Assembly: GCF_030845195.1 (NCBI RefSeq)
Contig: NZ_CP132543.1
Span: 2,621,501-2,685,500 of the forward strand
Source: Sanyastnella coralliicola
Lineage (GTDB): Bacteria > Bacteroidota > Bacteroidia > Flavobacteriales_D > Sanyastnellaceae
DNA: 64,000 nucleotides
Reading direction: 5' to 3'
The position numbers were made by a program, and so were the translations under genes. The notes beneath the pieces are model-generated. The model worked only from the letters and a program-made list of their open reading frames with translations, did not search any database and was not told the origin of the DNA. This document shows, piece after piece, positions 6,041 to 62,138 of the stretch (position 1 is its first letter; the number at the start of each line of letters is the position of its first letter).

Positions 6041-6050
6041 TCGGTCGCTC

Positions 6051-38836: not shown

Positions 38837-41353
38837 ATGAGAATTCTATCCTTTCTGTCACTCGTCATCTTTCTTGTTGCATGCACCCCTCAGCAAGATC
38901 AATCGAACACCACTGCTGATAAACTTTCAGAGAAGGCGCGTCCGAACGATCATGTGATGATGCAGCGAAGCTATCCTGACCTCACTCCTGACGTCAAGGC
39001 TATGCAACGTGTGGCTGAACGCGCTATCGCGGAATCGCATAGCAAATCCGTTGATCACCCATGGCAGGTGGAAGGTCCGACAAACATCGGCGGACGTATC
39101 AATACACTCGCTATTGACCCGAATGACGAATTGACCATGTACGCAGGTAGCTGTACTGGAGGAGTATTCAAAACCAGCAATGGCGGCGATTCATGGGATC
39201 CGATCGGAGACGATTTTCAGTTCCTACCTATTGGTCACATTGTCATCAACCCGAACAACTCTGATGATATCCTCGTGGGAACAGGTGACCCGCAGCTGAG
39301 TGGATTGCCACACATTGGAAACGGAGTCTACCGTTCATTCGATGGAGGTGATACTTGGACGAACATCGGACTAGAAGATATGGGAGTCATCTCCAAAGTG
39401 GGCTTCCACCCTGAAGACGATCAGACGCTCTTCGCCTGCGCGATGGGTGTGCCTTTCGCTCCAGGTCCAGACAGAGGTTTCTACCGCACGACAGATGGTG
39501 GAATGACGTGGACTCAACAGCTCTTCCTCGCGGAAAATGCCGGAATCACTGATTTCAAAATGAACCCTGAAAACCCAGATGTAATTTACGCTGCAGGTTG
39601 GAATCGTATCCGAAACAATCAAGAGTCGATTATCACCGGTGAACAAAGCCGTATCCACCGTTCAACCGATGGTGGTGATACGTGGGTTCAACTAGTGAAC
39701 GGACTCCCAATGGGTGACCAATGCCGTATTGGATTAGAGATGTCTCAAAACGACCCAAATACTCTGTGGGCATTGGTTGTTGGTACTGATTACGGAGTAC
39801 AAGGAATCTACAAAACCACGGATGGCGGAGACAGTTGGGTAAACCTCTACCAAGGCGGACTCGAAGGTGCACTTGGAGGATTCGGTTGGTACTTTGGTAA
39901 GATCCGTGTAAATCCATTTGACGAGAACGAGATCACCATTCTCGGTGTGGATATGTGGACGACCTACAACAACTGTCAAACATGGGAAATGTCAACTCCA
40001 CCATGGTGGGAGTACGATGTGCATGCTGACAAGCACGACCTCATTTACCTCAACCCAGATACGATGTGGCTGGCAACTGACGGTGGGATTTACCGAACAG
40101 GCACACACTTCATTTTCTGGGACGATGCAGATGACATCCCGAATACGCAGTTCTACCGCATTGCTTTGAACCCTCATAACCCTGGTGTATACACGGGTGG
40201 GGCGCAAGACAATGGAACCACTTCAGGAAACCTCAGCACCATTGATGAATGGACACGTGATTACGGTGGCGATGGTTTCCAGACGATTTATGATCCGGTC
40301 ATTGACGGCATCAAGTACATGGAAACTCAGAACGGAAATATCGTTGTGAGTGAGTTTGGCAACATCTTCGGACTGACCTTCGGACTTGACGAAGACGATC
40401 GTCGTAACTGGGACATGCCGTACATCATGAGTCACTTTGACAACGAACGACTGTACACAGGTACAGAGAAAGCGTATTGGATGAACGGCGCACCATATGA
40501 TGTGTGGGAGCCAATCAGCCAAGACCTCACAGATGGGAACATCTTTGGCTCGAACTTCCACACGATTTCTACCATTGGTGAAGCACAGACGGATGAAAGT
40601 AGAATCATGGTTGGAACAAGTGACGCCAACGTATGGCTGGGAACAGCAGGTGGAAACAGTTTCGTTTGGCAGCCTGTAACCGGTGACCTTCCAGAGCGCT
40701 ACGTGACGAATGTCAAGAGCAGTCCTGAAACAGAAGAACGCTGGTGGATCTCTCACAGCGGTTACAAAGACAACGATCAAACCGCTCACCTCCACCGCAC
40801 AGATGACAATGGGGCGAACTGGATTGATGTAACAGGAGATTTACCTGAACAACCGGTGAATCACATCGAAGTATTGAACGACAGTATTCTCTTTATCGCG
40901 ACTGATTACGGTGTATACCACACAGTGAATAGCGGAGACAACTGGGTACGAATTGGAAACAACATGCCGGCGATTCCGGTCTTTGACCTTGAGATTGATA
41001 CGACAGCACATACGCTTGTCGCTGGAACATTTGCTCGCGGTATTTGGACCTTCCCTATCGACTCATTGTTCACGTGGCCTGAACCAGAGGTGGAAGATGA
41101 TCCAATCAACATTGATGAAGAGTTACTAACACAACAATTCATCTATCCTAACCCTGCTTCTGACCAACTTCGCCTTGTTGGTTATGAAGGTTTCACATTT
41201 GAAGTATACGACCTTCGCGGTCAACTCGTTCTATCTAAAGGAAGGCTGACAAATAGCGCTCAACTCGACGTTAGTCAGCTGAAAAGCGGAAAATATGTCA
41301 TAGTCTTCACCAAGGATCAAACGAAGATGACAGAAAGCTTCATCAAACGATGA
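38837..41353 (+). CDS. Lipobox-bearing, T9SS-type sialidase-like repeat protein
   Basis: 838 residues. The N-terminus MRILSFLSLVIFLVACTPQQ is a lipoprotein signal with Cys16. From about residue 75 to 720 repeated BNR/VPS10-like beta-propeller units occur (GGVFKTSNGGDSWDPIG; GVYRSFDGGDTWTNIG; GFYRTTDGGMTWTQQ; GIYKTTDGGDSWVNL; GVYHTVNSGDNWVRI). The last 75 residues are a type A T9SS sorting domain (QFIYPNPASDQLRLVG...GKYVIVFTK). Having both a lipobox and a sorting domain is unusual. Its substrate is unknown, and glycan hydrolysis is not shown by any catalytic set I can see. Confidence 0.85.
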   Translation: MRILSFLSLVIFLVACTPQQDQSNTTADKLSEKARPNDHVMMQRSYPDLTPDVKAMQRVAERAIAESHSKSVDHPWQVEGPTNIGGRINTLAIDPNDELTMYAGSCTGGVFKTSNGGDSWDPIGDDFQFLPIGHIVINPNNSDDILVGTGDPQLSGLPHIGNGVYRSFDGGDTWTNIGLEDMGVISKVGFHPEDDQTLFACAMGVPFAPGPDRGFYRTTDGGMTWTQQLFLAENAGITDFKMNPENPDVIYAAGWNRIRNNQESIITGEQSRIHRSTDGGDTWVQLVNGLPMGDQCRIGLEMSQNDPNTLWALVVGTDYGVQGIYKTTDGGDSWVNLYQGGLEGALGGFGWYFGKIRVNPFDENEITILGVDMWTTYNNCQTWEMSTPPWWEYDVHADKHDLIYLNPDTMWLATDGGIYRTGTHFIFWDDADDIPNTQFYRIALNPHNPGVYTGGAQDNGTTSGNLSTIDEWTRDYGGDGFQTIYDPVIDGIKYMETQNGNIVVSEFGNIFGLTFGLDEDDRRNWDMPYIMSHFDNERLYTGTEKAYWMNGAPYDVWEPISQDLTDGNIFGSNFHTISTIGEAQTDESRIMVGTSDANVWLGTAGGNSFVWQPVTGDLPERYVTNVKSSPETEERWWISHSGYKDNDQTAHLHRTDDNGANWIDVTGDLPEQPVNHIEVLNDSILFIATDYGVYHTVNSGDNWVRIGNNMPAIPVFDLEIDTTAHTLVAGTFARGIWTFPIDSLFTWPEPEVEDDPINIDEELLTQQFIYPNPASDQLRLVGYEGFTFEVYDLRGQLVLSKGRLTNSAQLDVSQLKSGKYVIVFTKDQTKMTESFIKR
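39022..39034 (+). repeat. Iterated 13-mer CGCTANCGCGGAA, copy 8
   Basis: Central N is T. It lies in the sialidase-like gene in the frame reading A-I-A-E. Confidence 0.8.
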
Positions 41354-45007: not shown

Positions 45008-45756
45008 GGAAGTTTGGCTTGATAGGTTACCCATTAGGGCATTCGTGGTCTAAAGATTACTGGACAGAGTTCTTTCAAAAAGAACAACTGAAAGACCATG
45101 ACTACCTCCATTTCGAATTGCCCACGATTGATTACCTCCCTGAAATTCTGCGTGAAAACAAAGACTTGGTAGGACTCAATGTGACCATTCCATATAAAGT
45201 ATCTGTACTCGAGTACTGTGATATGCTATCGCCTGCGGCGGAAGCCATTGGAGCAGTAAACACTCTCTGGCGCACAGAAAAAGGTCTCATTGGATACAAC
45301 ACCGATGCCAGCGGTTTTCGAAAGAGCATTCGCCCCTTCCTCCAGCCTAAACACGAGCACGCCTTGGTGTTTGGAACAGGCGGTTCCGCGCTAGCGATTG
45401 CATACGTATTGAAAAACATTGGAATCAATGTACACTTCGTATCTCGCATGCCGTTAGGACAAGGAAAACTGGCCTATAAAGGCATCAATGAAGCGGTGAT
45501 GAATTCATGCAAATTGATTGTGAATTGCACACCTCTGGGCATGGCTCCGAAATCTGAGCGATGTCCTGATATCCCATACCACCTCATCACTCCTGAGCAC
45601 TTGGTGGTAGACTTAATCTACAATCCGGTCAAGACGCTCTTCCTTCAAAAAGCAGAGGAACAAGGAGCGACTATTCTGAATGGCAAAGACATGCTTCACT
45701 TTCAAGCCCAAAGCAGCTGGAATTGCTGGAATGGTGAGGAAGTATTCTGGAAGTAA
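45004..45756 (+). CDS. aroE: Shikimate dehydrogenase
   Basis: 250 residues from MRKFGLIGYPLGHSWSKDYW, the substrate-binding N-terminus. NVTIPYK holds the catalytic lysine, GAVNT is present, the NADP-binding GTGGSALAIAYVL segment follows, and NCTPLGM and DLIYNP complete the set. It reduces 3-dehydroshikimate in aromatic amino-acid synthesis. It is the last gene of the TPR-ComA-rhodanese-DUF368-aroE operon. Confidence 0.96.
   Translation: MRKFGLIGYPLGHSWSKDYWTEFFQKEQLKDHDYLHFELPTIDYLPEILRENKDLVGLNVTIPYKVSVLEYCDMLSPAAEAIGAVNTLWRTEKGLIGYNTDASGFRKSIRPFLQPKHEHALVFGTGGSALAIAYVLKNIGINVHFVSRMPLGQGKLAYKGINEAVMNSCKLIVNCTPLGMAPKSERCPDIPYHLITPEHLVVDLIYNPVKTLFLQKAEEQGATILNGKDMLHFQAQSSWNCWNGEEVFWK
45384..45396 (-). 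repeat. Iterated 13-mer CGCTANCGCGGAA, copy 9
   Basis: Central N is G. It lies in the aroE NADP-binding loop in the third frame, reading S-A-L-A. Confidence 0.8.
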
Positions 45757-46203: not shown

Positions 46204-48711
46204 ATGGATATGAAGTTTTTCGCTGCATCTGTATTGACCTTTCTACTGTGCCTGAGTCTGAATTCTCTTCGAGCGCAGACCATTCAAATGCCTTTTGAAA
46301 CCGAATGGGACTTTACTGATGCCGCAGATGAACATTGGCGTCAAGCTACTGTCCCAGGCTATGTTCATACCGACCTGCGTAATTACAACCTTATTCCTGA
46401 GCCCTATTATGCCGATAATGAAAATCGCGTGCAATGGGTCTCGAACAAATCATGGTGGTACCGAACCGTACCCTTCATCTTAAGCGATGACATTCTTGCC
46501 AAAGACCACGTTGAACTCACGTTTCGAGGCATCGACACCTTTGCAGAGATCTGGTACAACGGCGAGAAAATGCTCGACGTTAATAACGCTCACCGCTCTT
46601 GGACCATCGACTTAAAACAGGGATATGTAGACTACAACAACGTCATCGAGATTCGTTTTCGGTCTCCTCTGAAAGAAGGACAAGCGCTGATGGAAGCGCA
46701 GGATCATCCATTGCCAGGTGAAGCCATTCGCGCAGTGGCACGTAAGCCTCAATTCCACTACGGTTGGGACTGGGGTCCAAAGCTCACCTCTTCAGGGATC
46801 TCTGGAGCTATTGATCTACGCGCTTGGAGCGGAGTTACCCTAGACGACGTTACCTTCTCTACCCTTTCGGCAAACCGAGATAGTGCCGTGCTTGAAGTGA
46901 AGTGCTTTGTGCGATCTGATCATTCAGGCACCATAAACATCACAGGCAGCATGAGCGCGCTGGTGACCGCGGCCAATCCCTTCAAGTTCTCCGGGGATAT
47001 TCAACCTGGAGAGAATGTCATTACTGAACAGATTGTAGTCAAACGTCCGCAGCTTTGGTGGACGGCCGATAAGGGTGATCAACCCATCTATGATGTCACG
47101 GTGAAGGTTACTGGTGAGGTGAACGGACAAGCGCTACGCGAATTCGTAAAAACGAAGTTAGGTATTCGCACCATTGAACTCGACACTTCTCCTTTGGAAA
47201 ATGGAAGCAGGTTCCGATTCCTGTTGAACGGAGAACCGGTCTTCATGAAAGGGGCGAATTACATTCCTCAAGACCTCTTTGACACGCGTGTCTCTGAATA
47301 CGATTACCGTGAATTGCTGATTGATGCGCAGGCCGCTAACATGAATATGCTGCGTGTTTGGGGCGGCGGGATCTACGAACGCGACCTCTTCTATGACCTC
47401 TGTGACTCGCTTGGAATCATGGTTTGGCAAGACTTCATGTTTGCTTGTGCGATGTATCCTGGTGACGAAGAATACGCTGAAAACGTGCGCATCGAAGCCC
47501 AGGAACAGGTACAACGCTTATCGAGTCACCCTTGCATCGCCTTGTGGTGTGGGAACAACGAAAATGCTGAAGGATGGGCTCGTTGGGGCTGGCAAGAAGG
47601 CCTTTCAAAAAAGGAGAAGAAACGCATTGAAGAAAGCTACGCTCGCATCTTCGATGACGTACTACCATCGGCGGTAAGTGCTACTACCAATGTTCCATAC
47701 TGGGCTTCCTCCCCTATGCTCGGACGAGGTGATGACCGTCATCAATTCGAAGGCGATGCGCATTACTGGGGAGTATGGCATGATGCTGAACCCTTCGAAG
47801 TCTTCGAAGAAAAGGTTCCGCGCTTCATGAGTGAATTCGGGTTTCAGAGTTTCCCTGATGAGTTTACGTTGCGGACTGGGGTTCCAGAGAGTGAATGGGA
47901 TACTACTTCCGTTGTGCTCAAAGTGCATGAAAAGCATCCGCGTGGATTTAAGTTGATTGATGAATACATGCTCCGTGAGTACAATCAAGCAGCAGATTTC
48001 CGTGAGTGGATTTACAAGAGTCAGTTGGTACAGCGTAACGGTATGATTAAAGGTATTCATGCGCATCGCGCTAACGCGGAATGTGGCGGGAGCCTCTATT
48101 GGCAATTGAACGATTGCTGGCCGGTAGCAAGCTGGAGCAGCATTGATTACCGCGGCCGTTGGAAGGCGCTCCATTACCACGCTGAACAAGCCTTCGCTCC
48201 ACAGACCATGTGGTTAAACGAAGACGATAAAGGAATCTACCTCACCATCATTAACGATACACGAGACGCCTTTGCCGTTCCTGGAAGCGTGACTGTATTG
48301 AACGCATCGGGCGAGGCCATTCGTAAAAGCAGCATTGAGCAGTTCAAAGCGACTTCCGGAATTACGCGCGTTGATCTCAACACCCGTTCCGCCGACGGCG
48401 AGATTTATATGATTGAATGGAACGATGGCGGCCAAACTCGCAGAGACGTTTTCTTCCCGAACAGAATGAAGACCTACGATCTTCCAGAAACACGCATCAT
48501 CACTGAAGTCACTTCACGTGATCAAATCGTTTGGGAAATCAAACTACGCAGCGAATCACTTGCAGTCGATGTCCAAATCAATATCATGGAGGAAGGAAAA
48601 CTGAGTGACAACTACATCACGCTTCTCCCAGGAGAAACGAAGGTCATCACTTTCACCGCTGAACGCAGACTACGTCAAACTCCAACGGTCAATACTCAAT
48701 ACGTTCGTTAG
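46204..48711 (+). CDS. Beta-mannosidase (GH2 family), exported
   Basis: 835 residues, or 833 from the second ATG. A signal peptide (KFFAASVLTFLLCLSLNSLRAQ) is followed by a jelly-roll sugar-binding domain, an immunoglobulin-like domain, and the GH2 barrel. The acid/base glutamate is in WCGNNENAEGW and the nucleophile glutamate in MSEFGFQSFPDEF. AECGGSLYWQLNDCWP is the characteristic GH2 mannosidase segment. It removes terminal beta-mannose. No SusC/SusD pair is nearby, so this is not a classical polysaccharide utilisation locus. Convergent stop overlap with the PD40 gene. Confidence 0.93.
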   Translation: MDMKFFAASVLTFLLCLSLNSLRAQTIQMPFETEWDFTDAADEHWRQATVPGYVHTDLRNYNLIPEPYYADNENRVQWVSNKSWWYRTVPFILSDDILAKDHVELTFRGIDTFAEIWYNGEKMLDVNNAHRSWTIDLKQGYVDYNNVIEIRFRSPLKEGQALMEAQDHPLPGEAIRAVARKPQFHYGWDWGPKLTSSGISGAIDLRAWSGVTLDDVTFSTLSANRDSAVLEVKCFVRSDHSGTINITGSMSALVTAANPFKFSGDIQPGENVITEQIVVKRPQLWWTADKGDQPIYDVTVKVTGEVNGQALREFVKTKLGIRTIELDTSPLENGSRFRFLLNGEPVFMKGANYIPQDLFDTRVSEYDYRELLIDAQAANMNMLRVWGGGIYERDLFYDLCDSLGIMVWQDFMFACAMYPGDEEYAENVRIEAQEQVQRLSSHPCIALWCGNNENAEGWARWGWQEGLSKKEKKRIEESYARIFDDVLPSAVSATTNVPYWASSPMLGRGDDRHQFEGDAHYWGVWHDAEPFEVFEEKVPRFMSEFGFQSFPDEFTLRTGVPESEWDTTSVVLKVHEKHPRGFKLIDEYMLREYNQAADFREWIYKSQLVQRNGMIKGIHAHRANAECGGSLYWQLNDCWPVASWSSIDYRGRWKALHYHAEQAFAPQTMWLNEDDKGIYLTIINDTRDAFAVPGSVTVLNASGEAIRKSSIEQFKATSGITRVDLNTRSADGEIYMIEWNDGGQTRRDVFFPNRMKTYDLPETRIITEVTSRDQIVWEIKLRSESLAVDVQINIMEEGKLSDNYITLLPGETKVITFTAERRLRQTPTVNTQYVR
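48069..48081 (+). repeat. Iterated 13-mer CGCTANCGCGGAA, copy 10
   Basis: Central N is A. It lies in the beta-mannosidase gene in the frame reading A-N-A-E. Confidence 0.8.
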
Positions 48712-50333
48712 AGTTTGACCGTCTCTTTCATTACGGTCTCACCCAACTCGTTCAAGATCATTTCAAAACTGATCTGACCACTTGATTTACGAGACGAAAT
48801 GATGGCCTTATAGCGCACGCCACCTGGTAGATTGACACGCACTCTTCCAAGCTTGTCTGTCTTTTCGCTGGCGATGACACGATCTCCGTTTTCCAACATG
48901 AAATCTACCTGCGCACCTTTGAGGTTGTTCCCTTGGCTGTCTTGTACAGTCAAGATCATCGTCCCGTAATTGCTTGCAGAGTAGCCTTCGCTAATCAAAC
49001 GGTATTTCGACACATCGATCTCGTAAATGTCACGCTCACCAAGTGCATCATCGTATTCAGCAGCAATGTACATGGTCTTGCTATCACGCGTCAAAGAGAA
49101 GGTACTCTCTTCGTTCACCGTGTTAATCGGAAATCCGAGGTTCACAGGAATCGACCATTGACCATTTACGAACTCAGTTCGGAAGATATCGTAGCTACCC
49201 ATCGTCTGGTGACCGTTACTAGCGAAGTAAAGGGTCTTACCACTTGGGTGAATGAAGACAAATTTCTCGTCGAGCTCAGTGTTAATCACCTCACCCAAGT
49301 TTTTCGGCTTGCCCCATCCTTGACCGCTCTTTTTCGCTACATAGATGTCTCCTTGCCCTTGTCCTTCTGGACGTTCAGAAATGAAGTACAAGGTCTCGCC
49401 ATCAGCAGTAATCGATACCGAACTCTCGAAGTAAGAGGTATTCACCGGACGGTCCATTTTCTCAGGAGCACGCCATGAGTCTTCGTGTTTGTCGTAACCC
49501 GAAACGAAGATATCTCCCGCACTGTTCTGATTGTTTCGGTATACGAACATGCTTGTTCCATCAGGAGAAATAGAAAGCACCGCATCGTAGGTTGGTGTAT
49601 TCACTTCGCCGCTTACGCCTTCCGCGTCTATCCAAACGCCATCTTCTCCTTGCTTGGTGTAGTAAACGTCTTCGTAGAATTTGTAGTCACCTCCTTCATC
49701 GATTTCTCCACCTACGGCGTTAGAACGACGAGAAGTAAAGAAGAGCTTGTCTCCTTTCGCTGTTACGGAAGGGGCATATTCATCGAAACGCGAGTTGACT
49801 TCGGGTCCCATATTCTCAATGGACACCTGATGTGGTCTCGCCATGAGTTCTTTCGCGTATTTACATTGAGCGATAAAACGACGTGCCTCTTCCACATCAA
49901 ACGTGTTCTTATTCCCATTCTCATCAAGGAACTTCTGGAAGCGATCAATTGCTAGGTCGAGCTCTGCCAAACGATGGTGAATTTTCCCGTAGAAGAAGTC
50001 AACATTATCGTTCACCTTTGGGTCAATCTCTACCGCTTTATCAAGGTACTTGATTGCGAGATCATAACGCTTCAATTCATAGTGACAGCGCGCTGTCCAG
50101 TATTGTGCTGAGCTGTTATCAGGCTCTGCTTGAAGGATTTCACGATAAATGGTCAACGCACCGCGCATGTTGCGCTCATTGAACTCGTGTTTTGCCGCTA
50201 GCATTTTAGCAGGCAGGGCACCTTTCTCGAAAAATCCGGTATCATTTGTATCAGCTTCAAGCACTTCATAAGCTTGTGCTTGGAACGAAACCATCGCCAA
50301 TGCAAGGATGGGTAGGAGCAGCTTCAGATTCAT
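48708..50333 (-). CDS. TPR and PD40 (WD40-like) repeat envelope protein
   Basis: 541 residues with a signal peptide (MNLKLLLPILALAMVSFQAQA). Residues about 40-140 contain TPR units (AKHEFNERNMRGALTIYREI; CHYELKRYDLAIKYLDKAVEIDP). Residues about 180-440 are PD40 blades (YAPSVTAKGDKLFFTSRR; AVLSISPDGTSMFVYRN; SSVSITADGETLYFISERPEGQG; EKFVFIHPSGKTLYFASNG). A C-terminal carboxypeptidase-regulatory-like strand region follows. Related TPR/PD40 proteins with an added OmpA domain belong to T9SS or gliding machinery (PorE-like), but this one has no OmpA domain. A periplasmic envelope role is likely. Confidence 0.82.
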   Translation of the reverse strand: MNLKLLLPILALAMVSFQAQAYEVLEADTNDTGFFEKGALPAKMLAAKHEFNERNMRGALTIYREILQAEPDNSSAQYWTARCHYELKRYDLAIKYLDKAVEIDPKVNDNVDFFYGKIHHRLAELDLAIDRFQKFLDENGNKNTFDVEEARRFIAQCKYAKELMARPHQVSIENMGPEVNSRFDEYAPSVTAKGDKLFFTSRRSNAVGGEIDEGGDYKFYEDVYYTKQGEDGVWIDAEGVSGEVNTPTYDAVLSISPDGTSMFVYRNNQNSAGDIFVSGYDKHEDSWRAPEKMDRPVNTSYFESSVSITADGETLYFISERPEGQGQGDIYVAKKSGQGWGKPKNLGEVINTELDEKFVFIHPSGKTLYFASNGHQTMGSYDIFRTEFVNGQWSIPVNLGFPINTVNEESTFSLTRDSKTMYIAAEYDDALGERDIYEIDVSKYRLISEGYSASNYGTMILTVQDSQGNNLKGAQVDFMLENGDRVIASEKTDKLGRVRVNLPGGVRYKAIISSRKSSGQISFEMILNELGETVMKETVKL

Positions 50334-50354
50334 TCAGTTTGTCTGTTTGTTCTT

Positions 50355-50362
50355 CAAATTTA
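50355..50362 (-). promoter_or_regulatory. Candidate -7 promoter element of the TPR/PD40 gene
   Basis: TAAATTTG on the minus strand is an exact TAnnTTTG match 22 bases before the ATG. Confidence 0.55.
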
Positions 50363-50372
50363 GAAAAGTCTT

Positions 50373-50387
50373 TCTGCTATCGCAGGA
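50373..50387 (+). repeat. Covariant relative of the iterated 13-mer
   Basis: TCTGCTATCGCAGGA keeps the TANC centre and the downstream GGAA edge, but the stem pair next to GC is T-A instead of C-G. A similar TGCTAACGCAGGAA lies in mnmD at 52848-52861. Confidence 0.45.
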
Positions 50388-50389
50388 AC

Positions 50390-50415
50390 GCCTTTCTTCA
50401 CTAACGTGGAAAGGC
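50390..50415. promoter_or_regulatory. Extended hairpin with TAAC loop in the PD40/murQ gap
   Basis: GCCTTTC / GAAAGGC arms, a TT bulge, CAC / GTG inner pairs and a TAAC loop. The inner part CACTAACGTGGAA is a covariant form of the iterated 13-mer. It sits between divergent promoters and could be an operator or an RNA hairpin. Confidence 0.5.
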
Positions 50416-50482
50416 TTGAATAGTTATACATTCTTCACCTTTTGTGTATGCAAATGAAAGACCAAACTCAGGGCATTCATCG

Positions 50483-50490
50483 TACCTTTG
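50483..50490 (+). promoter_or_regulatory. Candidate -7 promoter element of murQ
   Basis: TACCTTTG is an exact match ending only six bases before the murQ ATG, so the transcript should have almost no leader. Confidence 0.6.
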
Positions 50491-50496
50491 TATTCA

Positions 50497-51312
50497 ATGG
50501 AAAAGAAGCTTCCTCATACGGAACGACAGAGCCACTATGATCACCTCGAACAAATGTCGGTGAGTGAGTTGCTGACGTCAATCAATAAAGAAGACCGTTC
50601 GGTGCCCGAAACCGTTGCAGGTGTCATCCCGAAGATTTCCACATTGGTAGAAATCATTGGTGATAAGATGAAGCAAGGCGGTAGACTATTCTACCTCGGC
50701 GCAGGAACCAGCGGACGACTCGGCATCGTAGATGCGAGTGAATGTCCGCCAACCTTCGGAGTAGACCAAGGCAGAGTTGTTGGTTTGATTGCCGGTGGAG
50801 ACAGTGCCATTCGAAAGGCCGTTGAGTTTGCGGAAGATGATCCGGAGGGAGGTTGGAACGATCTGTGCTCTCATAACGTAAATGAGAACGATGTGGTGAT
50901 TGGAATTGCAGCCAGTGGACGCACTCCATATGTAATTGGGGCCCTGAAACGTTGCCGAGAGAACAACATTGTCACAGGTTGTATTACATGCAACGAAGGA
51001 AGTGAATTAGCAGCCGTAGCTGATCACCCTATTGAAGCGGTAACTGGACCTGAGTTTGTCACCGGAAGCACACGCATGAAAGCAGGAACAGCGCAAAAGC
51101 TGATCCTCAATATGATTTCCACAGCAGTCATGATCCAGCTCGGACATGTCAAGGGAAATCGCATGGTAGACATGCAATTGGCAAACAATAAACTGTTAGA
51201 CCGAGGCACACGTATGATCGTAGAAGCCTTGGGCGTTCCCGCCGATACGGCGAGAAAATTATTAGAAGAAACAGGCAGTGTGCGCGCTGCTATTGAAAAA
51301 GGCAAAGAGTAA
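50497..51312 (+). CDS. murQ: N-acetylmuramic acid 6-phosphate etherase
   Basis: 271 residues from the ATG of MEKKLPHTERQ; a TTG three codons upstream overlaps the promoter. The SIS-fold signatures FYLGAGTSGRLGIVDASECPPTFG and VIGIAASGRTPYVIGAL, and the TGSTRMKAGTAQKLILNM motif, are present. The enzyme cleaves the lactyl ether of MurNAc 6-phosphate during peptidoglycan recycling. No murein transporter or NagA is adjacent. It is followed two bases later by a gene of unknown function beginning with GTG. Confidence 0.95.
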   Translation: MEKKLPHTERQSHYDHLEQMSVSELLTSINKEDRSVPETVAGVIPKISTLVEIIGDKMKQGGRLFYLGAGTSGRLGIVDASECPPTFGVDQGRVVGLIAGGDSAIRKAVEFAEDDPEGGWNDLCSHNVNENDVVIGIAASGRTPYVIGALKRCRENNIVTGCITCNEGSELAAVADHPIEAVTGPEFVTGSTRMKAGTAQKLILNMISTAVMIQLGHVKGNRMVDMQLANNKLLDRGTRMIVEALGVPADTARKLLEETGSVRAAIEKGKE

Positions 51313-52338: not shown

Positions 52339-52994
52339 TTTCTTCCTCGTAGCATGTGTCTTTTTCCTGGAGGTCCTTCGATACGCTCCATGTCATACCC
52401 AGCGCTAGCCAAGTCTCTACGTACTTGTCCTTTCGCGCAGTAGGACACGAATATGCCACCTTCATTTGTCGCTTCACACAATTGCTGAAACAAAGACAAA
52501 CGCCACATTTCAGGCTGCGCTCTCGGACCAAAGGCATCATAGTAAACGACATCAGCCACCCCATGTTCAAGTCTGGCGTCTTCGAGCTTCACTTCCCGCT
52601 TTGTGACAGAAAATTGCTCATCGATAGCAACCTCCTCTTCCCAAGAAGCTTCATGAAGTTTTTGAAAGAAGACCGCTTCCTCATCACCCTCAGCATAGCC
52701 CAAAGGAGCCACCTCATCAAAGGTGACTGGAAATGCTTCCAATCCGATATAGTGAATCTTGGCCCCGGCTTTCTTCGCTGCTTTCCACGAAAGAATGGCG
52801 TTTAACCCTGTTCCGAAACCGACTTCTAAAATGGTAAGCTCCTTTTTTTCTGCTAACGCAGGAACCAATCCCATTTGAATGAAGACATGTTCGGATTCTT
52901 GCCGTGCTCCATGTCGAGAATGGTAGGTTTCTTCCAGCTCTTCCACTTCCAATGTCTGGGAGCCGTCACCGGTTGTGATGATCTTTCGTTTCAC
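52335..52994 (-). CDS. mnmD: tRNA 5-methylaminomethyl-2-thiouridine methyltransferase, MnmD domain
   Basis: 219 residues starting at GTG (MKRKIITTGDGSQTLEVEELEETYHSRHGA). EVGFGTGLNAILSW is the SAM-binding loop, VVYYDAFGPRAQPEMW is the catalytic region, and GQVRRDLASAGY closes the domain. This is the methyltransferase half of MnmC without the MnmC1 FAD domain, common in Bacteroidota. It methylates the wobble uridine side chain in tRNA. Its upstream side runs directly into repeat island A; TATCTTCG may be its promoter element. Confidence 0.92.
   Translation of the reverse strand: MKRKIITTGDGSQTLEVEELEETYHSRHGARQESEHVFIQMGLVPALAEKKELTILEVGFGTGLNAILSWKAAKKAGAKIHYIGLEAFPVTFDEVAPLGYAEGDEEAVFFQKLHEASWEEEVAIDEQFSVTKREVKLEDARLEHGVADVVYYDAFGPRAQPEMWRLSLFQQLCEATNEGGIFVSYCAKGQVRRDLASAGYDMERIEGPPGKRHMLRGRK
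52848..52861 (+). repeat. Covariant relative of the iterated 13-mer in mnmD
   Basis: TGCTAACGCAGGAA has the TAAC centre and a T-A outer stem pair, like the copy at 50373. Confidence 0.4.
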
Positions 52995-53232
52995 CGCGCG
53001 AAGATAGGGAAACGGGGGACGGTAGACGGTAGACGGTGGACGGTGGACGGTGGACTGTGGACCGGAGAGAATTATAAATAATGAATTTGAATAGTGAATG
53101 GTGAATTGAAGGGGCGACCCAACAGTTCATTTTTCAGTATTCATTACTTATTAGTCATTATTCGAAGGGGTTATTGGTTATTGGTTATTGGTTTTTAGAA
53201 ACTCGTGCCTCAGATTATTCACCCCTAAAATC

Positions 53233-53312
53233 AGGCGCATAAATGCGCCGCTAAGGGACCAGAGGGCTGTCTTAAAGTCCTTTAGCGGTGCATTTATGCA
53301 CCTTTTTTTTTT
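53233..53312. repeat. Hairpin element copy A1
   Basis: Palindrome GGCGCATAAATGCGCC, arm GCTAAGGGAC, loop, arm GTCCTTTAGC, palindrome GGTGCATTTATGCACC, then a run of ten T. The left and right halves can also pair with each other over about 27 bases. Confidence 0.8.
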
Positions 53313-53432
53313 GCGGACCGTGGGCCGGAGAGATTAATAATTAATGAATCGTGATTTGTGAATTTTGAATTGACCCAGTTACTGGTTTTTGGTTTTTGGA
53401 AACTCGTGCCTCAGATTATTCACCCCTAAATC

Positions 53433-53522
53433 AGGCGCATAAATGCGCCGCTAAGGGACCATAGGGCTGCCTTAAAGTCCTTTAGCGGTGCACCTGTCCC
53501 GTTCTTCGGGATTTATGCACCT
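53433..53522. repeat. Hairpin element copy A2
   Basis: Same as A1, but the right palindrome is opened by an insert with its own stem TCCCG/CGGGA around TTCT. All later copies share this insert. Confidence 0.8.
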
Positions 53523-53587
53523 TTTTTCGTGGACGGTGAACGGTTGACGGTTGACGGTTGACGGAACTAACGCCTAAAGCCCAACGC

Positions 53588-54556
53588 CTAACGCCTATCA
53601 ACCCGAATAATCGGTCGAAACCCAACATCCGTTTGTGGTCCGTCATTCGGCATGGTGCTTTCACAGCGGACATCATATCCGGTAGATTTCCATCCGCCGC
53701 CGCAGGCGATGCCTTTTTCGGCGACCATTTCGGCGACGTTTCCGTTCATGTTGTACAGACCGAAATCATTCTTTGTAAATGAACTCACAGGAGCCGTGAG
53801 TTGATAAGCAGAAATGAAGCACTCTTGGTTCTTCTTTCCAATTTCTCCAAGCGTCGCACCCGGATGACCGAGCATTGGGCCAGGAACACTGGTCAACACC
53901 TCGTACTCTCCTGTTTCAGAATTGTAATGGATGTTTCCTGCGCCCAAGTATCTGAAGTTGGCCAAAAAACATCCCTTCGCATTGCGAAGGTATGGTCCAC
54001 CCCATGCGTAGGTAGCGAATTCATGTCCGCCTTTGGCAGCGGCTACCCATTCGTCTCTTGTTGGCAGGGTCACGGTATATTTAACTTGTCCATCTGCAAA
54101 AGCATTCAACGAATCTTGAAGCCATGCACAGTAAAGCTCTGCCCCTTCATGTGAGACATTCACCACAGGATAATCATTGTATGCCGGGTGATTGAAGTAA
54201 TACTCAACAAAGGGCTCGTTATACCCCATCGGCGTGCGCCATTGAAGTGAATCAACTTGAGCTAAGGCTAGCTTTTCAGTTTCACCAGCTCGCTTTAAAT
54301 CAGTCAAAAACTCACGGTACATGAAGTTGCTCACCTCCGTAGTAGCGCAATAAAAACCTTCCACCATGACCGTCCGGTTATGGGTACAGGTATCACAATC
54401 CATGACCATCGTATATGCCATCCCAGGGACGGCCGCAAAGTGATCATCAAAGTGTTTCGGGAAGCCAGGATTCTTCTTGAGGTCCAAGGTCATCCAACTC
54501 GATAGCAAAAGAATGGCAGGTAGCGCCAAGGCAACAGCGCGATACTTCAGTTTCAT
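53588..54556 (-). CDS. SUMF1/formylglycine-generating-like domain protein
   Basis: 322 residues with a hydrophobic N-terminus (YRAVALALPAILLLSSWM), an uncleaved anchor or signal peptide without a lipobox cysteine. The SUMF1 fold is visible from about residue 40 (MVEGFYCATTEVSNFMYREFL; YPVVNVSHEGAELYCAWL; LPTRDEWVAAAKGG; GLYNMNGNVAEMVAEKG; GGGWKSTG; VGFRPIIRV). I do not see the paired active-site cysteines of true formylglycine-generating enzymes, so a structural role is likelier. T9SS GldK/GldJ are SUMF1-like lipoproteins, but this one is shorter. Its stop codon lies within repeat island A; its upstream side is island B. Confidence 0.8.
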   Translation of the reverse strand: MKLKYRAVALALPAILLLSSWMTLDLKKNPGFPKHFDDHFAAVPGMAYTMVMDCDTCTHNRTVMVEGFYCATTEVSNFMYREFLTDLKRAGETEKLALAQVDSLQWRTPMGYNEPFVEYYFNHPAYNDYPVVNVSHEGAELYCAWLQDSLNAFADGQVKYTVTLPTRDEWVAAAKGGHEFATYAWGGPYLRNAKGCFLANFRYLGAGNIHYNSETGEYEVLTSVPGPMLGHPGATLGEIGKKNQECFISAYQLTAPVSSFTKNDFGLYNMNGNVAEMVAEKGIACGGGWKSTGYDVRCESTMPNDGPQTDVGFRPIIRVDRR

Positions 54557-55282
54557 TTTCCAGGATTTTACGGTTTCGAAGATAAGGATACACGGGGGGG
54601 GCGAAAAGTTACAAGGCGGATCACGGTGGACGGTGGACGGTGGACGGTGGACGGTGGACGGTGGACGGTGGACGGAAAGAATAATAATTAGTGATTAATG
54701 AATACTGAATTGTGAACTGAGCTCACTCTAAGCACCATTCATTATTAGTTGCTCTTAGTCGAGTCAATCATCCCTGAACACAGGCGCAAGATTGCGCCAA
54801 TTAATGCCGGGGACGGTGGACGGAAAGAATAATAATTAGTGATTAATGAATAGTGAATAATAGGAAGGGCTTCTTCCTAATTCATCATTTAGGTTTCATT
54901 GAATGTTCTTGTCCTTATTGGCAATAATCGAATCCGCTCCAGGTAGGGCAATCCTTCTAAGACCCTGGATATTTACCCTTAAAACCAGGCGCATAAATGC
55001 GCCGCTAAGGGACCAAAGTACTACCATAAAGTCCTTTAGCGGTGCACCTGTCCCGTCCTTCGGGATTCATGCACCAATTAATGCCGGTGACAGGGGATGG
55101 TGGACGGTGGACGGAATGAATAAAAATTAGTGATTAATGAATACTGAATAATAAAATGGGCTTCTTCTTGATTCATAATTCATGGGTGAACTCAATTCTG
55201 AATTCATTACTTACGATTCATTAATCACTATTCACCCCCGTCTACCGTCCACCGTCCACCGTCTACTGTCTACTGTCTACTT
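54557..55282. repeat. Repeat island B (no gene)
   Basis: Between the SUMF1-gene start and the TIGR02757 stop. It has a GACGGTG array (54623-54675), a truncated hairpin element (54781-54798), a second array, one full hairpin element (54987-55075), more GACGGTG units (55098-55114), and an inverted heptad array (55240-55281). The words TAGTGATTAATGAAT near 55129 and its reverse complement near 55215 form an inverted repeat. Confidence 0.85.
54987..55075. repeat. Hairpin element copy B1
   Basis: GGCGCATAAATGCGCC left palindrome, GCTAAGGGAC / GTCCTTTAGC arms and the insert-bearing right palindrome. A truncated relative at 54781-54798 keeps only GGCGCAAGATTGCGCC. Confidence 0.8.
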
Positions 55283-56074
55283 TCAGCCAAACACCCCCGT
55301 TCCGAACAACGCAAAATCATACTTCACCGGGTCTTCCGCGTCTAACGAGCGTAATACCTCCATAAGTTCTTCCACGGCTTTCCAGTCGTTCTGTTTGCGG
55401 GTGAGTAAGCTGAGTTCTCTGGCGACGTTTCCCGTGTGGACGTCTAGTGGGACGTATAACTGGGATGGGGAAATTTGATTCCAAATGCCGAGGTCAACTC
55501 CCTTTTCTTTGGAGCGGACCATCCAGCGGAGGTACATGTTGATGCGTTTGGCACTTGAGCCGCGTGTGGGGTCGGCTACGTGTTTAGTGGTTCTACCGGG
55601 GTGCTCGATGGAGAAGAATACCTTTTTGAATTCCGCGATAGCGAGACCCATCTGACCCTTGGAAGCAATGGCATTAGCAAAAACAGTTTCCAAGCCTCCG
55701 TGATGGCGGTAGATGTTTCGGAGCGAAGCGACAAAGAAGAGCAGATCAGTATCATTAAAGGTGCGATGGACGAAGCCTTGAAGGCGCTTCATGTCTTGAT
55801 CTTCGGCGTTCAAAATGAAGTCGTGGGGAGCTTGATCCATGCGCTCTACGATGCTGTGTGCGTTGTTGATGATGGTCTTGCGTTGCCCCCAAGCGATGGT
55901 AGCAGCGAGGAAGCCGCTAATCTCTTGGTCTTCCTTTTTTGTGAAGGACTGCGGAATCTGAATCGGATCGGAATCGATGAACTCTGGTGATTCGTACTTC
56001 AGCCATTGTGCATCGAGCCAATCTCCGAGCTCTTCACGTTTCGTTGGAAAACTTGTTGTTAAAAGACGTTTCAC
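55283..56074 (-). CDS. TIGR02757/DUF2400 family protein
   Basis: 263 residues. Family signatures seen are DSDPIQIPQSFTKKEDQEISGFLAATIAWGQRKTII, FVHRTFNDTDLLFFVASLR and PLDVHTGNVARELSLLTRKQNDW. Function is unknown; the helical pattern resembles HhH DNA-glycosylase-like folds, but I cannot name a catalytic residue. The stop codon immediately follows an inverted heptad array. One copy of the iterated 13-mer is inside. Confidence 0.85.
   Translation of the reverse strand: MKRLLTTSFPTKREELGDWLDAQWLKYESPEFIDSDPIQIPQSFTKKEDQEISGFLAATIAWGQRKTIINNAHSIVERMDQAPHDFILNAEDQDMKRLQGFVHRTFNDTDLLFFVASLRNIYRHHGGLETVFANAIASKGQMGLAIAEFKKVFFSIEHPGRTTKHVADPTRGSSAKRINMYLRWMVRSKEKGVDLGIWNQISPSQLYVPLDVHTGNVARELSLLTRKQNDWKAVEELMEVLRSLDAEDPVKYDFALFGTGVFG
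55631..55643 (-). repeat. Iterated 13-mer CGCTANCGCGGAA, copy 11
   Basis: Central N is T. It lies in the TIGR02757 gene in the frame reading A-I-A-E. Confidence 0.8.
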
Positions 56075-56125: not shown

Positions 56126-58180
56126 ATGAAATTCGCACATCCGGAAATACTCTGGGCACTCATCGCACTGGCCGTTCCAGTGATCGTCCACCTCTTCAAT
56201 TTTCGGAGATTCAAACGTGTTGAATTCTCTAACGTCGCATTCCTTAAAGAAGTTCAGCAAGAGACCAAGTCGCGTTCACGACTCAAACACCTCTTGATTC
56301 TTACTTCGCGTTTGTTGGCGATCCTCTTCCTTGTCTTTGCTTTTGCCCAACCCTTCATCCCCCTCGATGAAACAAGAACGGGAGCGACCACACGAAACGT
56401 TTCGATCTACATTGACAACAGTTTCAGTATGGATGCCTTGAGCGGTGAAGGAAGACTGCTTGATCTCGCCAAGGCGAAAGCAGGTGAAGTCATCAGTGCT
56501 TATCAGGCTACCGATCGATTCCAAATCATCACTAATGATCTGGAAGGTCGACATCAACGATTCCACAGCCAAGAAGACGTGTTAGACATGCTCGATGAAA
56601 TCACGGTTTCATCTGCAGTACGACCGTTGGGAGAAGTCATTCAACGTCAACAAGACCTGATCATGACCTCTGGTGCTGAAGACACCTATGGCGGGAATAT
56701 CTTCGTCTTCTCTGATCTTCAAGAGTCAACACACCGCTTCGATGGCTTTGTTCCAGACAGTGCCATCAACGTGCGTTTCGTTCCAGAATTTGCCACGAGA
56801 TCAGCCAATGTTTGGATTGATTCTATCTGGTTTGATACTCCAGTGCGTAGCTTGAACGAACCAGAAAAGCTGAACCTGCGCATCATGAACGATGCCGCTG
56901 AAGGACTAGATAATGTCCCGATGAAATTGGAAATCAATGGACAGCAAAAAGCCATTGGTAGCTTCAACGTACTACCCGGAACATTCACTGATACTTGTCT
57001 TTACTTCACATCGACTACCCCTGGGGTGAAGCACTGCAGACTTTCGATTCAAGATCACCCGATTAGCTACGACGACGATTGGCACTTTGGCTTCACCATC
57101 GCAGCCAAAGTAAAAGTGCTAGTGATCAAAGAGGCCAACGGTGGAGGTGAGTTCCGCAGCATCTTTGGGAATGACCCGTTCTACGATCTTGAAGTGAGTG
57201 ACCTGGGGAATGTCAACTACGGACGTATCCCTCTCTTCGATTTGGTGATCTTGGATGAGCCGAGTTCGATTGCTTCCGGGCTGACCCAAGAATTAGCGAG
57301 CTTCATCAATGATGGCGGAACCGTACTCTTCTTCCCGAAATCAAATGGTGAGAAGAATTCTTACAATGAACTGTTGCTCGCAGGTGGGGCGCCATCGATT
57401 AAGAGCCGCACTTCTATTCGATCAAAGGTTTCTGACATCAACCTATCACACCCTATTTACGCTGGGGTATTTGATCGCATTCCAGAAAACATTGACCTGC
57501 CACAAGTCACGAGTTACCTCGCCTTTAGCAGAGGTTCTCGTTCGGGTGAGCAACAACTCTTGACCCTCCAGAATGGTGACCCTTTCTTCTTCCGCGCTAG
57601 CGAAGGTGAAGGACAACTATTCGTTTCAGCAGTAGGCCTAAGTCAAGAAGAAAGCAACTTCTCGAAGCACGCCATTTTTGTACCAACCATCTTGAGGGTA
57701 GCGGAATTCGCTCGACCAAGTGGAGACATGGATCAGACCATTGGTGCAGACGCCGTTCTTACCTTAAGAAAGCTTCCGGTGACCGGTGACGCCTCGTTTA
57801 AGCTTCAGCGTGTGGGGAGCGAAGAAGGCTACATTCCAAGACACCGCTCTGTTCGTGGAGGGGTTGAGATCTTCCTAGGAGATCAGCAGGGAAGCGCAGG
57901 AAATTATGAACTCTTACTCGCAGACTCTGTCGTAAAAGCGATTGGTCTGAACTACTCACGCGATGAGTCTTCTTTGAGTGCCTACACCAAGGCCAATTGG
58001 GAGAACGAACTGGCGCTCGCTGGTTGGAATAAGAGTTCTGTTATTGAATCGTCTATTGATACGGTAAGCAACGCAGTGGAGCAACTTGATGAAGGCAAGG
58101 TCTTGTGGGACCTCTTCATTATGTTAGCCATTGCCATGCTAGTTATTGAATTGCTGCTCATTAAATTTTGGAAATCTTGA
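56126..58180 (+). CDS. BatA-like membrane protein
   Basis: 684 residues. The N-terminal BatA domain (FAHPEILWALIALAVPVIVHLFNFRR ... LLAILFLVFAFAQPFIP) has two transmembrane helices. A von Willebrand A-like domain follows, with the NVSIYIDNSFSMDA strand whose DxSxS motif reads DNSFS. Residues about 215-640 are periplasmic with no assigned domain, and a last helix is near the C-terminus (LFIMLAIAMLVIELLLI). Bat proteins are envelope proteins of uncertain role. Its stop overlaps the dihydroorotase-like ATG (TGATG), so the two are translationally coupled. Confidence 0.88.
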   Translation: MKFAHPEILWALIALAVPVIVHLFNFRRFKRVEFSNVAFLKEVQQETKSRSRLKHLLILTSRLLAILFLVFAFAQPFIPLDETRTGATTRNVSIYIDNSFSMDALSGEGRLLDLAKAKAGEVISAYQATDRFQIITNDLEGRHQRFHSQEDVLDMLDEITVSSAVRPLGEVIQRQQDLIMTSGAEDTYGGNIFVFSDLQESTHRFDGFVPDSAINVRFVPEFATRSANVWIDSIWFDTPVRSLNEPEKLNLRIMNDAAEGLDNVPMKLEINGQQKAIGSFNVLPGTFTDTCLYFTSTTPGVKHCRLSIQDHPISYDDDWHFGFTIAAKVKVLVIKEANGGGEFRSIFGNDPFYDLEVSDLGNVNYGRIPLFDLVILDEPSSIASGLTQELASFINDGGTVLFFPKSNGEKNSYNELLLAGGAPSIKSRTSIRSKVSDINLSHPIYAGVFDRIPENIDLPQVTSYLAFSRGSRSGEQQLLTLQNGDPFFFRASEGEGQLFVSAVGLSQEESNFSKHAIFVPTILRVAEFARPSGDMDQTIGADAVLTLRKLPVTGDASFKLQRVGSEEGYIPRHRSVRGGVEIFLGDQQGSAGNYELLLADSVVKAIGLNYSRDESSLSAYTKANWENELALAGWNKSSVIESSIDTVSNAVEQLDEGKVLWDLFIMLAIAMLVIELLLIKFWKS
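57590..57602 (-). repeat. Iterated 13-mer CGCTANCGCGGAA, copy 12
   Basis: Central N is G. It lies in the BatA-like gene in the frame reading F-R-A-S-E, as copy 6. Confidence 0.8.
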
Positions 58181-60925: not shown

Positions 60926-61575
60926 TACATGTTTTTGCGTCCGTAGGCGAGATCACCCGCGTCACCAAGTCCAGGTACGATGTACGACTGAGCGGTCAAT
61001 TCGCTATCCACAGCTCCAGCCCAAATGGTAATATTCTCAGGCAATTGACTTTTGATGTGCGCGATTCCTTGATTGCTCGCTATCGCGGAAGCGATATGGA
61101 TATGCTTCGGAGTACCCTTCGCCTTCAAGGCTTGGTAAACACACTCCACAGAAGATCCTGTCGCAATCATCGGATCACACAAGATCACCGTACGATCATT
61201 AATCGAAGGCGAAGAAACATACTCCACCTCAATCTCAAAATCTCCTCCCTTATGTGAACGACGGTAAGCTGAAATGAATCCGTTGTCCGCCGCGTCGAAG
61301 TAATTCAAAAACCCCTGATGAAACGGCAACCCCGCACGCAGAATCGTAACCAACACCGGCTGCTCGCTAATCACGTGCATATCAGCCTCTCCCAAGGGAG
61401 TGATAATCTCCTTCTCCTCTACCGGAAAGGTCTTGCTAATCTCATAGGCCATCACTTCCGCAATGCGCTCCAAATTTCTACGAAATCGCATGCGATCTTT
61501 CTGAGTCTCCTGAGATCGAATCTCAGCGATAAAGGTGTTGAAGACTGAGTTTGTCTTACCGAGTTCACGAACCAT
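60925..61575 (-). CDS. upp: Uracil phosphoribosyltransferase
   Basis: 216 residues. The PRPP-binding loop is VILCDPMIATGSSVECV, with VTILRAGLPFHQGF and the uracil-binding YIVPGLGDAGDLAYG at the C-terminus. It makes UMP from uracil and PRPP in salvage. It heads a three-gene operon with a membrane protein and a pyrimidine nucleotidase. Upstream is repeat island C. Confidence 0.96.
   Translation of the reverse strand: MVRELGKTNSVFNTFIAEIRSQETQKDRMRFRRNLERIAEVMAYEISKTFPVEEKEIITPLGEADMHVISEQPVLVTILRAGLPFHQGFLNYFDAADNGFISAYRRSHKGGDFEIEVEYVSSPSINDRTVILCDPMIATGSSVECVYQALKAKGTPKHIHIASAIASNQGIAHIKSQLPENITIWAGAVDSELTAQSYIVPGLGDAGDLAYGRKNM
61078..61090 (+). repeat. Iterated 13-mer CGCTANCGCGGAA, copy 13
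   Basis: Central N is T. It lies in upp in the third frame, reading S-A-I-A on the coding strand. Confidence 0.8.
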
Positions 61576-61918
61576 GTAGCAAAGTTAGGCAAACGGGGTG
61601 GATCAGACGAGAGTCGAGGGTCGAGAGATAAAACGTGGACTGTGGACCGTGGACCGTGGACCGTGGACAGAATGAATAATGATTAATAAATAATGAATAC
61701 TGAATTGTAAACTGAGCTCCTCAATTCACCATTCATTATTCTTTGCTCCTGTTTGAGTCAATTATCTCTAATTACAGGCGCAAGATTGCGGAAGACGGTG
61801 GACGGTGGACGGGAGGAATAATGATTAATAAATAATGAATACTGAATTGTAAACTGGGCTCGGCCTATTCACGATTCATTACTCTTTGCTCTTTGTCGAG
61901 TCAATCATCCCTAAATAC

Positions 61919-62008
61919 AGGCGCAAGATTGCGCCGCTAAAGGACCCAAAGTAGGACAAATTGGTCCTTTAGCGGTGCACCTGTCCCGTTCTTCGGGATT
62001 TATGCACC
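61919..62008. repeat. Hairpin element copy C1
   Basis: Left palindrome is GGCGCAAGATTGCGCC, with both inner stem bases changed relative to copies A1, A2 and B1. Arms GCTAAAGGACC / GGTCCTTTAGC form a perfect 11-base stem. Confidence 0.8.
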
Positions 62009-62138
62009 AATTATCGCCGGGGACGGTGGACGGAATGAATAATGATTAATAAATAATGACTACTGAATAATAAACTGGGCTGCTCAATTCACAATTCATC
62101 ATTCTTTACTCCTGTTTGAGTCAATTATCCCTAATTAC

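Follow-up and report, generated by a model that had tools for sequence, protein, structure and literature searches.

A covarying hairpin family scattered through the genes of Sanyastnella coralliicola, with other hairpin kinds in its place in related genomes

Results and Discussion

Two Hairpin Elements in a Divergent Intergenic Region

The window analyzed here, a stretch of 64,000 nucleotides, lies in the genome of Sanyastnella coralliicola (G000; 4,097,636 bases) and includes a divergent intergenic region of 163 bp (50334-50496). The left-hand gene (48708-50333, minus strand) encodes a protein of 541 aa with TPR plus PD40 repeats according to Pfam. The right-hand gene (50497-51312, plus strand) encodes a SIS-domain protein that, by Pfam (run from 50503; the ATG is at 50497), resembles MurNAc-6-P etherase, and we take it to be similar to MurQ. 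Two short sequences in the region, TAAATTTG at 50362-50355 on the minus strand and TACCTTTG at 50483-50490 on the plus strand, resemble the Bacteroidota -7 box TAnnTTTG.

A first-pass annotation had pointed to two related inverted repeats at 50373-50415. Both sequences are in place when the letters are re-read, but their starts lie 25 bases apart, not at the spacing of 22 bases first given. Element 1 (50374-50388) is a 4-bp member that reads CTGC-TATC-GCAG-GAA on the top strand, with CTGC at 50374-50377, then TATC, GCAG at 50382-50385, and GAA at 50386-50388. Throughout, members are assigned to the strand that carries the TTC tag, which for element 1 is the minus strand (TTC-CTGC-GATA-GCAG). 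Element 2 (50399-50411, minus strand) is a 3-bp member, CAC-TAAC-GTG-GAA, with CAC at 50399-50401, then TAAC, GTG at 50406-50408, and GAA at 50409-50411. The TANC loops initially described are present in both elements, but element 1 has a 4-bp stem followed by GAA rather than a 3-bp stem followed by GGAA. Likewise, the outer arms GCCTTTC (50390-50396) and GAAAGGC (50409-50415) do surround element 2, spanning 50390-50415, but they are not a general feature of the family, given that comparable arms were seen by eye at one of six other nongenic 3-bp copies. Two further sites had been listed as related forms. That at 52848-52861 is a true 4-bp member, CTGC-TAAC-GCAG-GAA at 52850-52864 (minus strand); that at 6025-6040 has, by eye, the loop AAC instead of TANC and falls outside the family.

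Both elements are identical in G001, a genome of the same genus that is ~92% identical to G000 where aligned. They lie within an identical run of 162 bp (50267-50428), the sixth longest such run in 90 kb aligned at 92.5%. In G002, the genome of a more distantly related member of the genus, nothing matching the intergenic sequence at 50334-50496 was seen by eye. Instead, GCGGTCTGCGGTCTG-like and GGCGGACGCGATAAATCGCGTCC repeats fill the intergenic region at the equivalent place in G002 (L078, ~1360-1900). That elements 1 and 2 lie so near each other is ordinary: four of 191 neighbor distances in the sample are below 100 bp, and ~5 are expected from the mean spacing.

Members in the Window and Throughout the Genome

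The family is defined by a stem of 3 bp (sometimes 4 bp), a TANC loop, and GAA at the foot of the stem; on the other, tagged strand this reads TTC-stem-GNTA-stem. The parent motif CGC-TANC-GCG-GAA (CGCTANCGCGGAA) occurs 770 times in the whole of G000, with 401 forward and 369 reverse copies, and a reversed-pattern control of the parent gives no match in this genome. Thirteen parent copies reside in the window, six on the plus strand (2996-3008, 10333-10345, 30086-30098, 45384-45396, 55631-55643, and 57590-57602) and seven on the minus strand (1648-1660, 18654-18666, 22924-22936, 31756-31768, 39022-39034, 48069-48081, and 61078-61090). Besides element 2, CAC stems are present at 8490-8502 and 30280-30292, both on the minus strand and both identical in G001. 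GGC stems are found on the plus strand at 9919-9931, 10633-10645, and 16849-16861; the last is identical in G001, and the first two are close enough together that their independence is uncertain. A rare GTC stem (32877-32889, minus strand) differs from G001 by one base, which breaks the stem there.

Within a G000 sample of 864 kb, comprising the window and 40 stretches of 20 kb, 222 of 233 members lie inside called ORFs and 11 outside. These genic and intergenic counts are approximate, since ORF calling simply took the longest ORF, with a minimum of 90 codons. A special role of the divergent promoter finds no support in this distribution. Most likely, elements 1 and 2 are two ordinary family members whose promoter position is incidental.

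No Rfam covariance model matched the window at its gathering score, and a tRNA scan led nowhere. Several other repeats were encountered. A nongenic CGC member of G000 (L096, 11479-11491) sits, by eye, between AAGCCC and GGGCTT arms and resembles a terminator hairpin whose loop contains the motif. The window segments 52995-55295 and 61618-62817 contain nests of 14-bp GACGGTGGACGGTG-type tandem repeats and AATAATGAATACTGAAT blocks, along with CCGCTAAAGGAC / GTCCTTTAGCGG palindromes, and parts of these nests match many places in G001. Diverged direct repeats with a spacing of ~140-145 bases or multiples thereof occupy 10831-13324. In addition, the 10-mer CACGAACCAC, which stands outside the hairpin family, has 53 copies in 16 of 41 G000 sample loci.

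Stems Vary in a Paired Manner

Near-variants of the parent in the window comprise one site with one mismatch and nine sites with two. Six of these nine are paired double changes, three to CAC/GTG (including 50399) and three to GGC/GCC. Genome-wide, the CAC/GTG double change is found 49 times in G000, element 2 being one of these copies, and 44 times in G001, whereas its single-change intermediates together number four and eight, respectively (a pattern that allows either base on either side matches 823 sites in G000 and 719 in G001). In the 864-kb sample, the three commonest two-change classes are all paired (GGC/GCC 18, CAC/GTG 10, CTC/GAG 7), and the corresponding single changes occur zero to two times each; CCC/GGG, with three copies, is tied with two unpaired two-change classes. 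The two commonest classes in 360 kb of G001 are also paired (CAC/GTG 6 and GGC/GCC 6). Two counts in this genome speak against pairing, namely a third class that is unpaired (A at position 1, C at position 10; three copies) and a single change to A at position 10 (four copies).

Sites were also picked solely by their closing pair, loop, and GAA. Among 244 such sites in 864 kb of G000, both outer positions are paired in 213, and three Markov-3 shuffles of the same sequence yield 2, 1, and 3 paired NNC stems and none with CGC, GGC, or CAC. When CGC/GCG is left out, 44 of 75 sites are paired, far above the shuffle mean of 9.5 (maximum 19 in 2000). The 4-bp class behaves in the same way in G000, with 18 of 62 anchors paired (shuffle mean 2.0, maximum 6 in 200), and in G001, with 8 of 25 paired (shuffle mean 0.7, maximum 5); none of seven anchors is paired in G002.

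These results strongly support the initial proposal that paired changes point to the importance of the inverted repeat as such, and the excess over shuffled sequence that this proposal called for is observed. We conclude with near certainty that the covarying hairpin family itself is real. Of the two forms originally considered, a hairpin or a symmetric protein site, the hairpin is favored over a site for a dimer on duplex DNA because single-change intermediates are so rare. Their ratios to double changes, 4 to 49 (G000) and 8 to 44 (G001), are not what would be produced by a dimer whose half-sites are read independently.

The same pattern bears on whether elements 1 and 2 are a symmetric transcription-factor site acting on both flanking promoters. 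Both lie upstream of the promoter-like TAAATTTG of the left-hand gene, and the 162 bp around them are identical between G000 and G001. However, covariation is unlike that of two independent half-sites, and only 11 of 233 sampled members are outside called ORFs. We consider regulation of this kind quite improbable.

Members Are Kept Between Two Species

The parent motif is present 667 times in G001, and the family is kept between the two species. Within the 90 kb aligned at 92.5%, from pieces longer than 800 bp and above 85% identity, 32 sites carry a 3-bp member in at least one of the two genomes. Of these, 27 are identical, namely 16 of 18 in sense orientation, 10 of 12 antisense, and one of two intergenic. 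Five of seven non-CGC sites, among them 50399, are identical as well. The five sites that differ do so by base substitutions and have no gaps. An overlapping comparison of 80.8 kb (pieces >800 bp) shows 24 of 27 CGC, GGC, or CAC sites to be identical, compared to 41% of random 13-mers, and motif columns are 98.3% identical versus 92.1% for the flanks.

Gene Context and Origin of the Copies

The 3-bp members in G000 include 142 in sense and 64 in antisense orientation relative to the gene. The raw sense excess approximately matches codon usage, because the summed ratios of observed parent copies over codon expectation are 1066 in sense (115 sites) and 966 in antisense (48 sites). The correction is crude, with per-frame ratios from 181 to 11,914, and the agreement of the two sums is accordingly rough. 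In 21 stretches, the motif has no polarity relative to GC skew (17 plus and 20 minus copies in positive-skew stretches, 25 plus and 26 minus in the others), which rules against a replication polarity.

The motif leaves its mark on the encoded proteins. Peptides of the form Ala-[Asn/Ser/Thr/Ile]-Ala-Glu reach 154 per Mb sampled in G000 and 106 in G001, the two genomes with the parent motif, versus 20 in G002. The parent explains 101 of the 133 such peptides sampled in G000 and 30 of the 38 in G001, but none of the nine in G002.

How copies arise was assessed by alignment to G002. Forty of 197 genic G000 sites can be aligned to the G002 sample, often at positions with other amino acids, and 36 of these 40 alignments are gap-free. 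In the reverse direction, 31 of 76 genic sites of the G002 hairpin described below can be aligned, 23 of them without gaps. Because 36 of 40 alignable sites are gapless, the motif looks as though it was made by substitution. Thus, in most alignable cases, the copies appear to have arisen by substitution rather than insertion, and the mostly gapless alignments rule against an inserted mini-element.

Related Genomes Carry Other Hairpins

The parent motif is nearly restricted to G000 and G001. It has one copy in G002 and zero to three in the other 37 of 40 genomes searched, and no other genome in a phylum sample of 395 (which includes G000 but not G001 or G002) has more than four. An over-represented 10-mer in G002 led instead to a hairpin of its own, which consists of CATC, a covarying 6-bp stem that begins with C-G, and a TTYH loop (mainly TTTT, TTCT, or TTTC). 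Of 115 sites anchored by CATCC, the loop, and the final G, 97 pair at all five free positions and form 34 distinct stems (shuffle mean 6.9, maximum 15 in 2000). Among the 103 sites with at most one nonpair, 97 are entirely Watson-Crick, two have a wobble, and four have another nonpair. There are 291 copies of the sequence CATCCNNCGCTTTTGCG in G002, none in either G000 or G001, and a single one across the other 37 genomes.

A flank/stem/loop scan of 14 further relatives revealed a third kind in G016, which belongs to another genus of the family. This hairpin has ATC, a 5-bp stem, a loop of GNNA or GTTYA, and an A-rich tail; ATCCNNCCGTTYAGGNNGAA is present 126 times in G016 and absent from the other 39 genomes. 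No comparable signal was found in 13 relatives sampled at 28-90 kb, samples in which weaker or other motifs could be missed, more so at 28-58 kb. G007 (L136, L185-L188) has seven hairpin copies with the one unvarying stem ACTCC and, given this lack of stem variation, was not counted as a bearer. A strong first-scan signal in G013 fell away after clustered copies were removed.

Applied to sampled genomes other than their own, the three hairpin definitions yield zero to six matches per genome. In their own genomes, the densities are 0.267 per kb in G000 (231 in 864 kb), 0.256 in G001 (92 in 360 kb), 0.248 in G002 (109 in 440 kb), and 0.250 in G016 (20 in 80 kb). These near-equal values of ~0.25 per kb rest on motif definitions tuned per genome, and for G002 and G016 the loop and tag were defined from the very samples in which copies were then counted. 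Related genomes therefore have, at similar sampled density, a hairpin with another tag, stem length, and loop in place of the family. As with the G000 family, most copies are genic: 24 of 109 are outside called ORFs in G002, whose sequence is 12% noncoding, and 3 of 20 in G016. Per 20 kb, the counts vary less than a Poisson distribution would predict in G001 (index 0.37, P 0.008) and in G002 (0.45, P 0.015), whereas G000 shows no such evenness (0.96, P 0.45); the index for G016 is 0.53 (P 0.34) from four stretches only. Spacing is not regular at short range, with 19 of 191 distances below 300 bp versus 14.4 expected.

Strand, Molecule, and Folding

All three kinds have the tag 5′ of the hairpin when read as TTC-CGC-GNTA-GCG, CATC-...-TTYH, and ATC-...-GNNA. 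Closed by a C-G pair, the loops GNTA and GNNA match the DNA tetraloop class cGNNAg, which is unusually stable. The predicted energies for 3-bp hairpins as DNA range from -0.9 to -2.7 kcal/mol. Specifically, the parent is predicted at -2.7 and -2.4 kcal/mol on its two strands and folds weakly, such that equally good folding is reached by 17 of 200 shuffles for the tagged strand and by 34 of 200 for the other. Given this weak predicted folding, a 3-bp hairpin would need a partner that holds it. The tagged strands of the longer stems fare better in the same calculation: -3.3 for the 4-bp element 1 (0 of 200 shuffles as good), -7.6 for the G002 kind (1 of 200), and -6.2 for the G016 kind (3 of 200). 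By these predictions, energy alone picks neither strand nor molecule.

We infer that the acting form is single-stranded DNA, since a 3-bp stem would hardly extrude from duplex DNA, almost no wobble pairs occur, and the copies use either strand of a gene. A hairpin acting as RNA, in mRNAs, would draw on the greater predicted stability of the parent as RNA (-4.0 versus -2.7 kcal/mol as DNA) and on the excess of sense members (142 versus 64). However, this excess is roughly covered by codon usage (1066 versus 966, a crude comparison), antisense copies are kept (10 of 12), and intermediates of the G-U type are nearly absent. Function in mRNA is, in our estimation, the least probable of the alternatives weighed here.

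Candidate Readers of the Hairpin

One candidate for a protein that reads single-stranded hairpins is the Y1_Tnp family, found in all four of the sampled genomes that bear hairpins and in four of the 12 that do not. Recognition by TnpA-REP proteins is strand-specific and involves a 5′ tetranucleotide along with a folded hairpin (PMC8266576). The hairpins might accordingly be recognition sites of a domesticated Y1 HUH protein (IS200/IS605 or TnpA-REP type), with the tag acting as the 5′ guide tetranucleotide. The architectures match in that a 5′ tag lies at the foot of a strand-specific single-stranded DNA hairpin whose loop is read specifically (PMC8266576, PMC6006769), and one described subclass, largely from Bacteroidetes, has atypical secondary structures at its flanks (PMC6006769). 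Other observations are more difficult to reconcile with this possibility. The Y1 proteins of G000, G001, and G002 share 20-28% identity over 81-133 residues and look nonorthologous. The 3.3-kb Y1 loci of both G000 and G001 lack any 3-bp TANC-GAA copy, and in the G002 locus the closest CATC hairpin lies at a distance of ~1.4 kb. Furthermore, the tags are TTC and CATC, not GTAG, and the copies look to be made by substitution rather than insertion. We therefore regard a Y1 reader as doubtful, though with an appreciable chance of being correct. The narrower case of an adjacent RAYT system was rejected, because the genes in G000, G001, and G002 are not flanked by cognate hairpins.

Genes for DNA uptake were also surveyed. 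ComEC was detected in 23 of the 24 genomes searched (a set to which G016 does not belong) and is thus not a discriminator. A T2SSE-type ATPase gives a strong match in G000 and G001, whereas G002 and G016 have none, and a type IV pilus would thus appear not to be needed by all bearers. Matches to this ATPase, of the PilB/GspE type, score above the cut-off in only three of 16 genomes (G000:C1:2200538-2201656, G001:C46:4744-5862, and G008:C77:3191-4303).

Comparison with Known Genome-Wide Signatures

Known signatures of this breadth either have fixed letters, as do uptake sequences, Chi, and HIP1, or are mostly intergenic hairpins, as are REPs. The uptake sequences of Neisseriaceae and Pasteurellaceae (DUS/USS) are like the family in having hundreds to thousands of copies, many genic and in both orientations (PMC3630211, PMC2346458), and in having species-specific variants, or dialects, within a bacterial family (PMC3630211). 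A reading-frame bias of one orientation has also been described for them (PMC2346458). However, DUS/USS are fixed sequences with one fixed core, whereas the stem of the family varies freely so long as it is paired, as the 49 CAC/GTG copies versus four singles and the 34 stems of G002 indicate. Of the pilus machinery associated with DUS/USS, the one family tested (T2SSE ATPase) is present in two of four hairpin bearers. Riemerella columbina is reported to prefer its own DNA, and its over-represented k-mers are listed as putative uptake sequences of unproven function (PMC7965970); that study makes an uptake preference in Flavobacteriaceae at least plausible.

REPs with their RAYT/TnpA-REP proteins share with the family a short unpaired tag beside a hairpin and strand specificity (PMC3733652, PMC8266576), as well as loop families that are often species-specific, and intragenic REP copies are known (PMC3733652). 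In contrast, REPs are 20-40 bp in length and mostly intergenic, with the tag GTAG or CGTC, and their intragenic copies are described as inserts (PMC3733652). The hairpins reported here are 13-20 nt and mostly intragenic (11 of 233 outside ORFs in G000), have the tag TTC or CATC, and look substitution-made. There is no adjacent transposase in G000, G001, or G002, nor is a RAYT gene flanked by cognate hairpins in these three genomes. Cod-2, one of the intragenic stem-loop repeat families known from other bacteria, is likewise a small repeat inside various coding sequences in different frames and has been likened to repeat elements of R. conorii genes (PMC2267715). Compensatory stems or species dialects are not seen in the accessible text of that paper, where the term "compensat" is absent (PMC2267715).

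HIP1 of cyanobacteria is also a highly iterated short palindrome, but it is one fixed 8-bp duplex palindrome tied to methyltransferases (PMC4390886), whereas the family keeps pairing and not sequence. The HIP1 palindrome GCGATCGC is a different motif from that of the family, whose stem is variable. Chi sites have a density similar to that of the family and are read on single strands. Chi is of fixed sequence and often polar along the replichore, although not all known Chi sites are equally polar, whereas the stem of the family varies and polarity is absent in 21 stretches. Uptake sequences, REPs, HIP1, and Chi each depart from the family in at least one defining feature tested. Searches of open-access PMC papers brought up no report recognizable as this pattern, and the accessible text of a survey of spaced motifs does not name Bacteroidetes (PMC5217627).

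A Possible Tag on Single-Stranded DNA

Our preferred, if tentative, interpretation is that the hairpins are folded single-strand tags used in DNA exchange or repair, a mechanism we consider plausible but somewhat less likely than not. A predicted protein would recognize the tag together with the folded hairpin on single-stranded DNA. With less assurance, the hairpin could mark single strands as self when they form during DNA uptake, recombination, or repair, in the manner of an uptake sequence or Chi. If DNA with the hairpin were preferred, the motif would accumulate at tolerant positions.

A related alternative is a Chi-like or HIP-like signal for chromosome maintenance, read on single strands at breaks or forks without uptake. 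The density of about one per 4 kb, the genome-wide scatter, and the strong conservation are what such a signal might produce. However, known Chi and HIP1 are fixed while the stem here varies, and there is no polarity relative to GC skew, making this a rather unlikely explanation. The hairpins could instead be a functionless mutational epiphenomenon, such as palindrome correction or biased repair. Template-switch repair is known to perfect palindromes, which counts in favor of this idea. For exceptional HIP sequences, a model of biased repair has been put forward (PMC4390886). However, an origin of this type leaves unexplained the fixed loop, the fixed unpaired tag, and the conservation of 27 of 32 sites, and we judge it improbable.

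Compensatory changes show that the sites of the family are held by their ability to fold, at ~0.25 per kb or about a thousand sites per genome when extrapolated from the samples, under a folding constraint strong enough to shape protein sequence, as in the A[NSTI]AE peptides. Applied more broadly, the proposed tag on single strands leads to a further possibility, of which we are less confident. The chromosomes of a family of Flavobacteriales may be marked, at about one site in every 4 kb, by words of folded single-stranded DNA, in lineage dialects that differ in tag, loop, and stem length, and a hairpin-reading protein could use these words to tell own from foreign single strands in DNA exchange. 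The finding predicts a hairpin-reading protein, and bacterial recognition of single-stranded self DNA becomes testable with short oligonucleotides. If the proposal is true, these bacteria would have an uptake or recombination signature that is based on structure and not on sequence.
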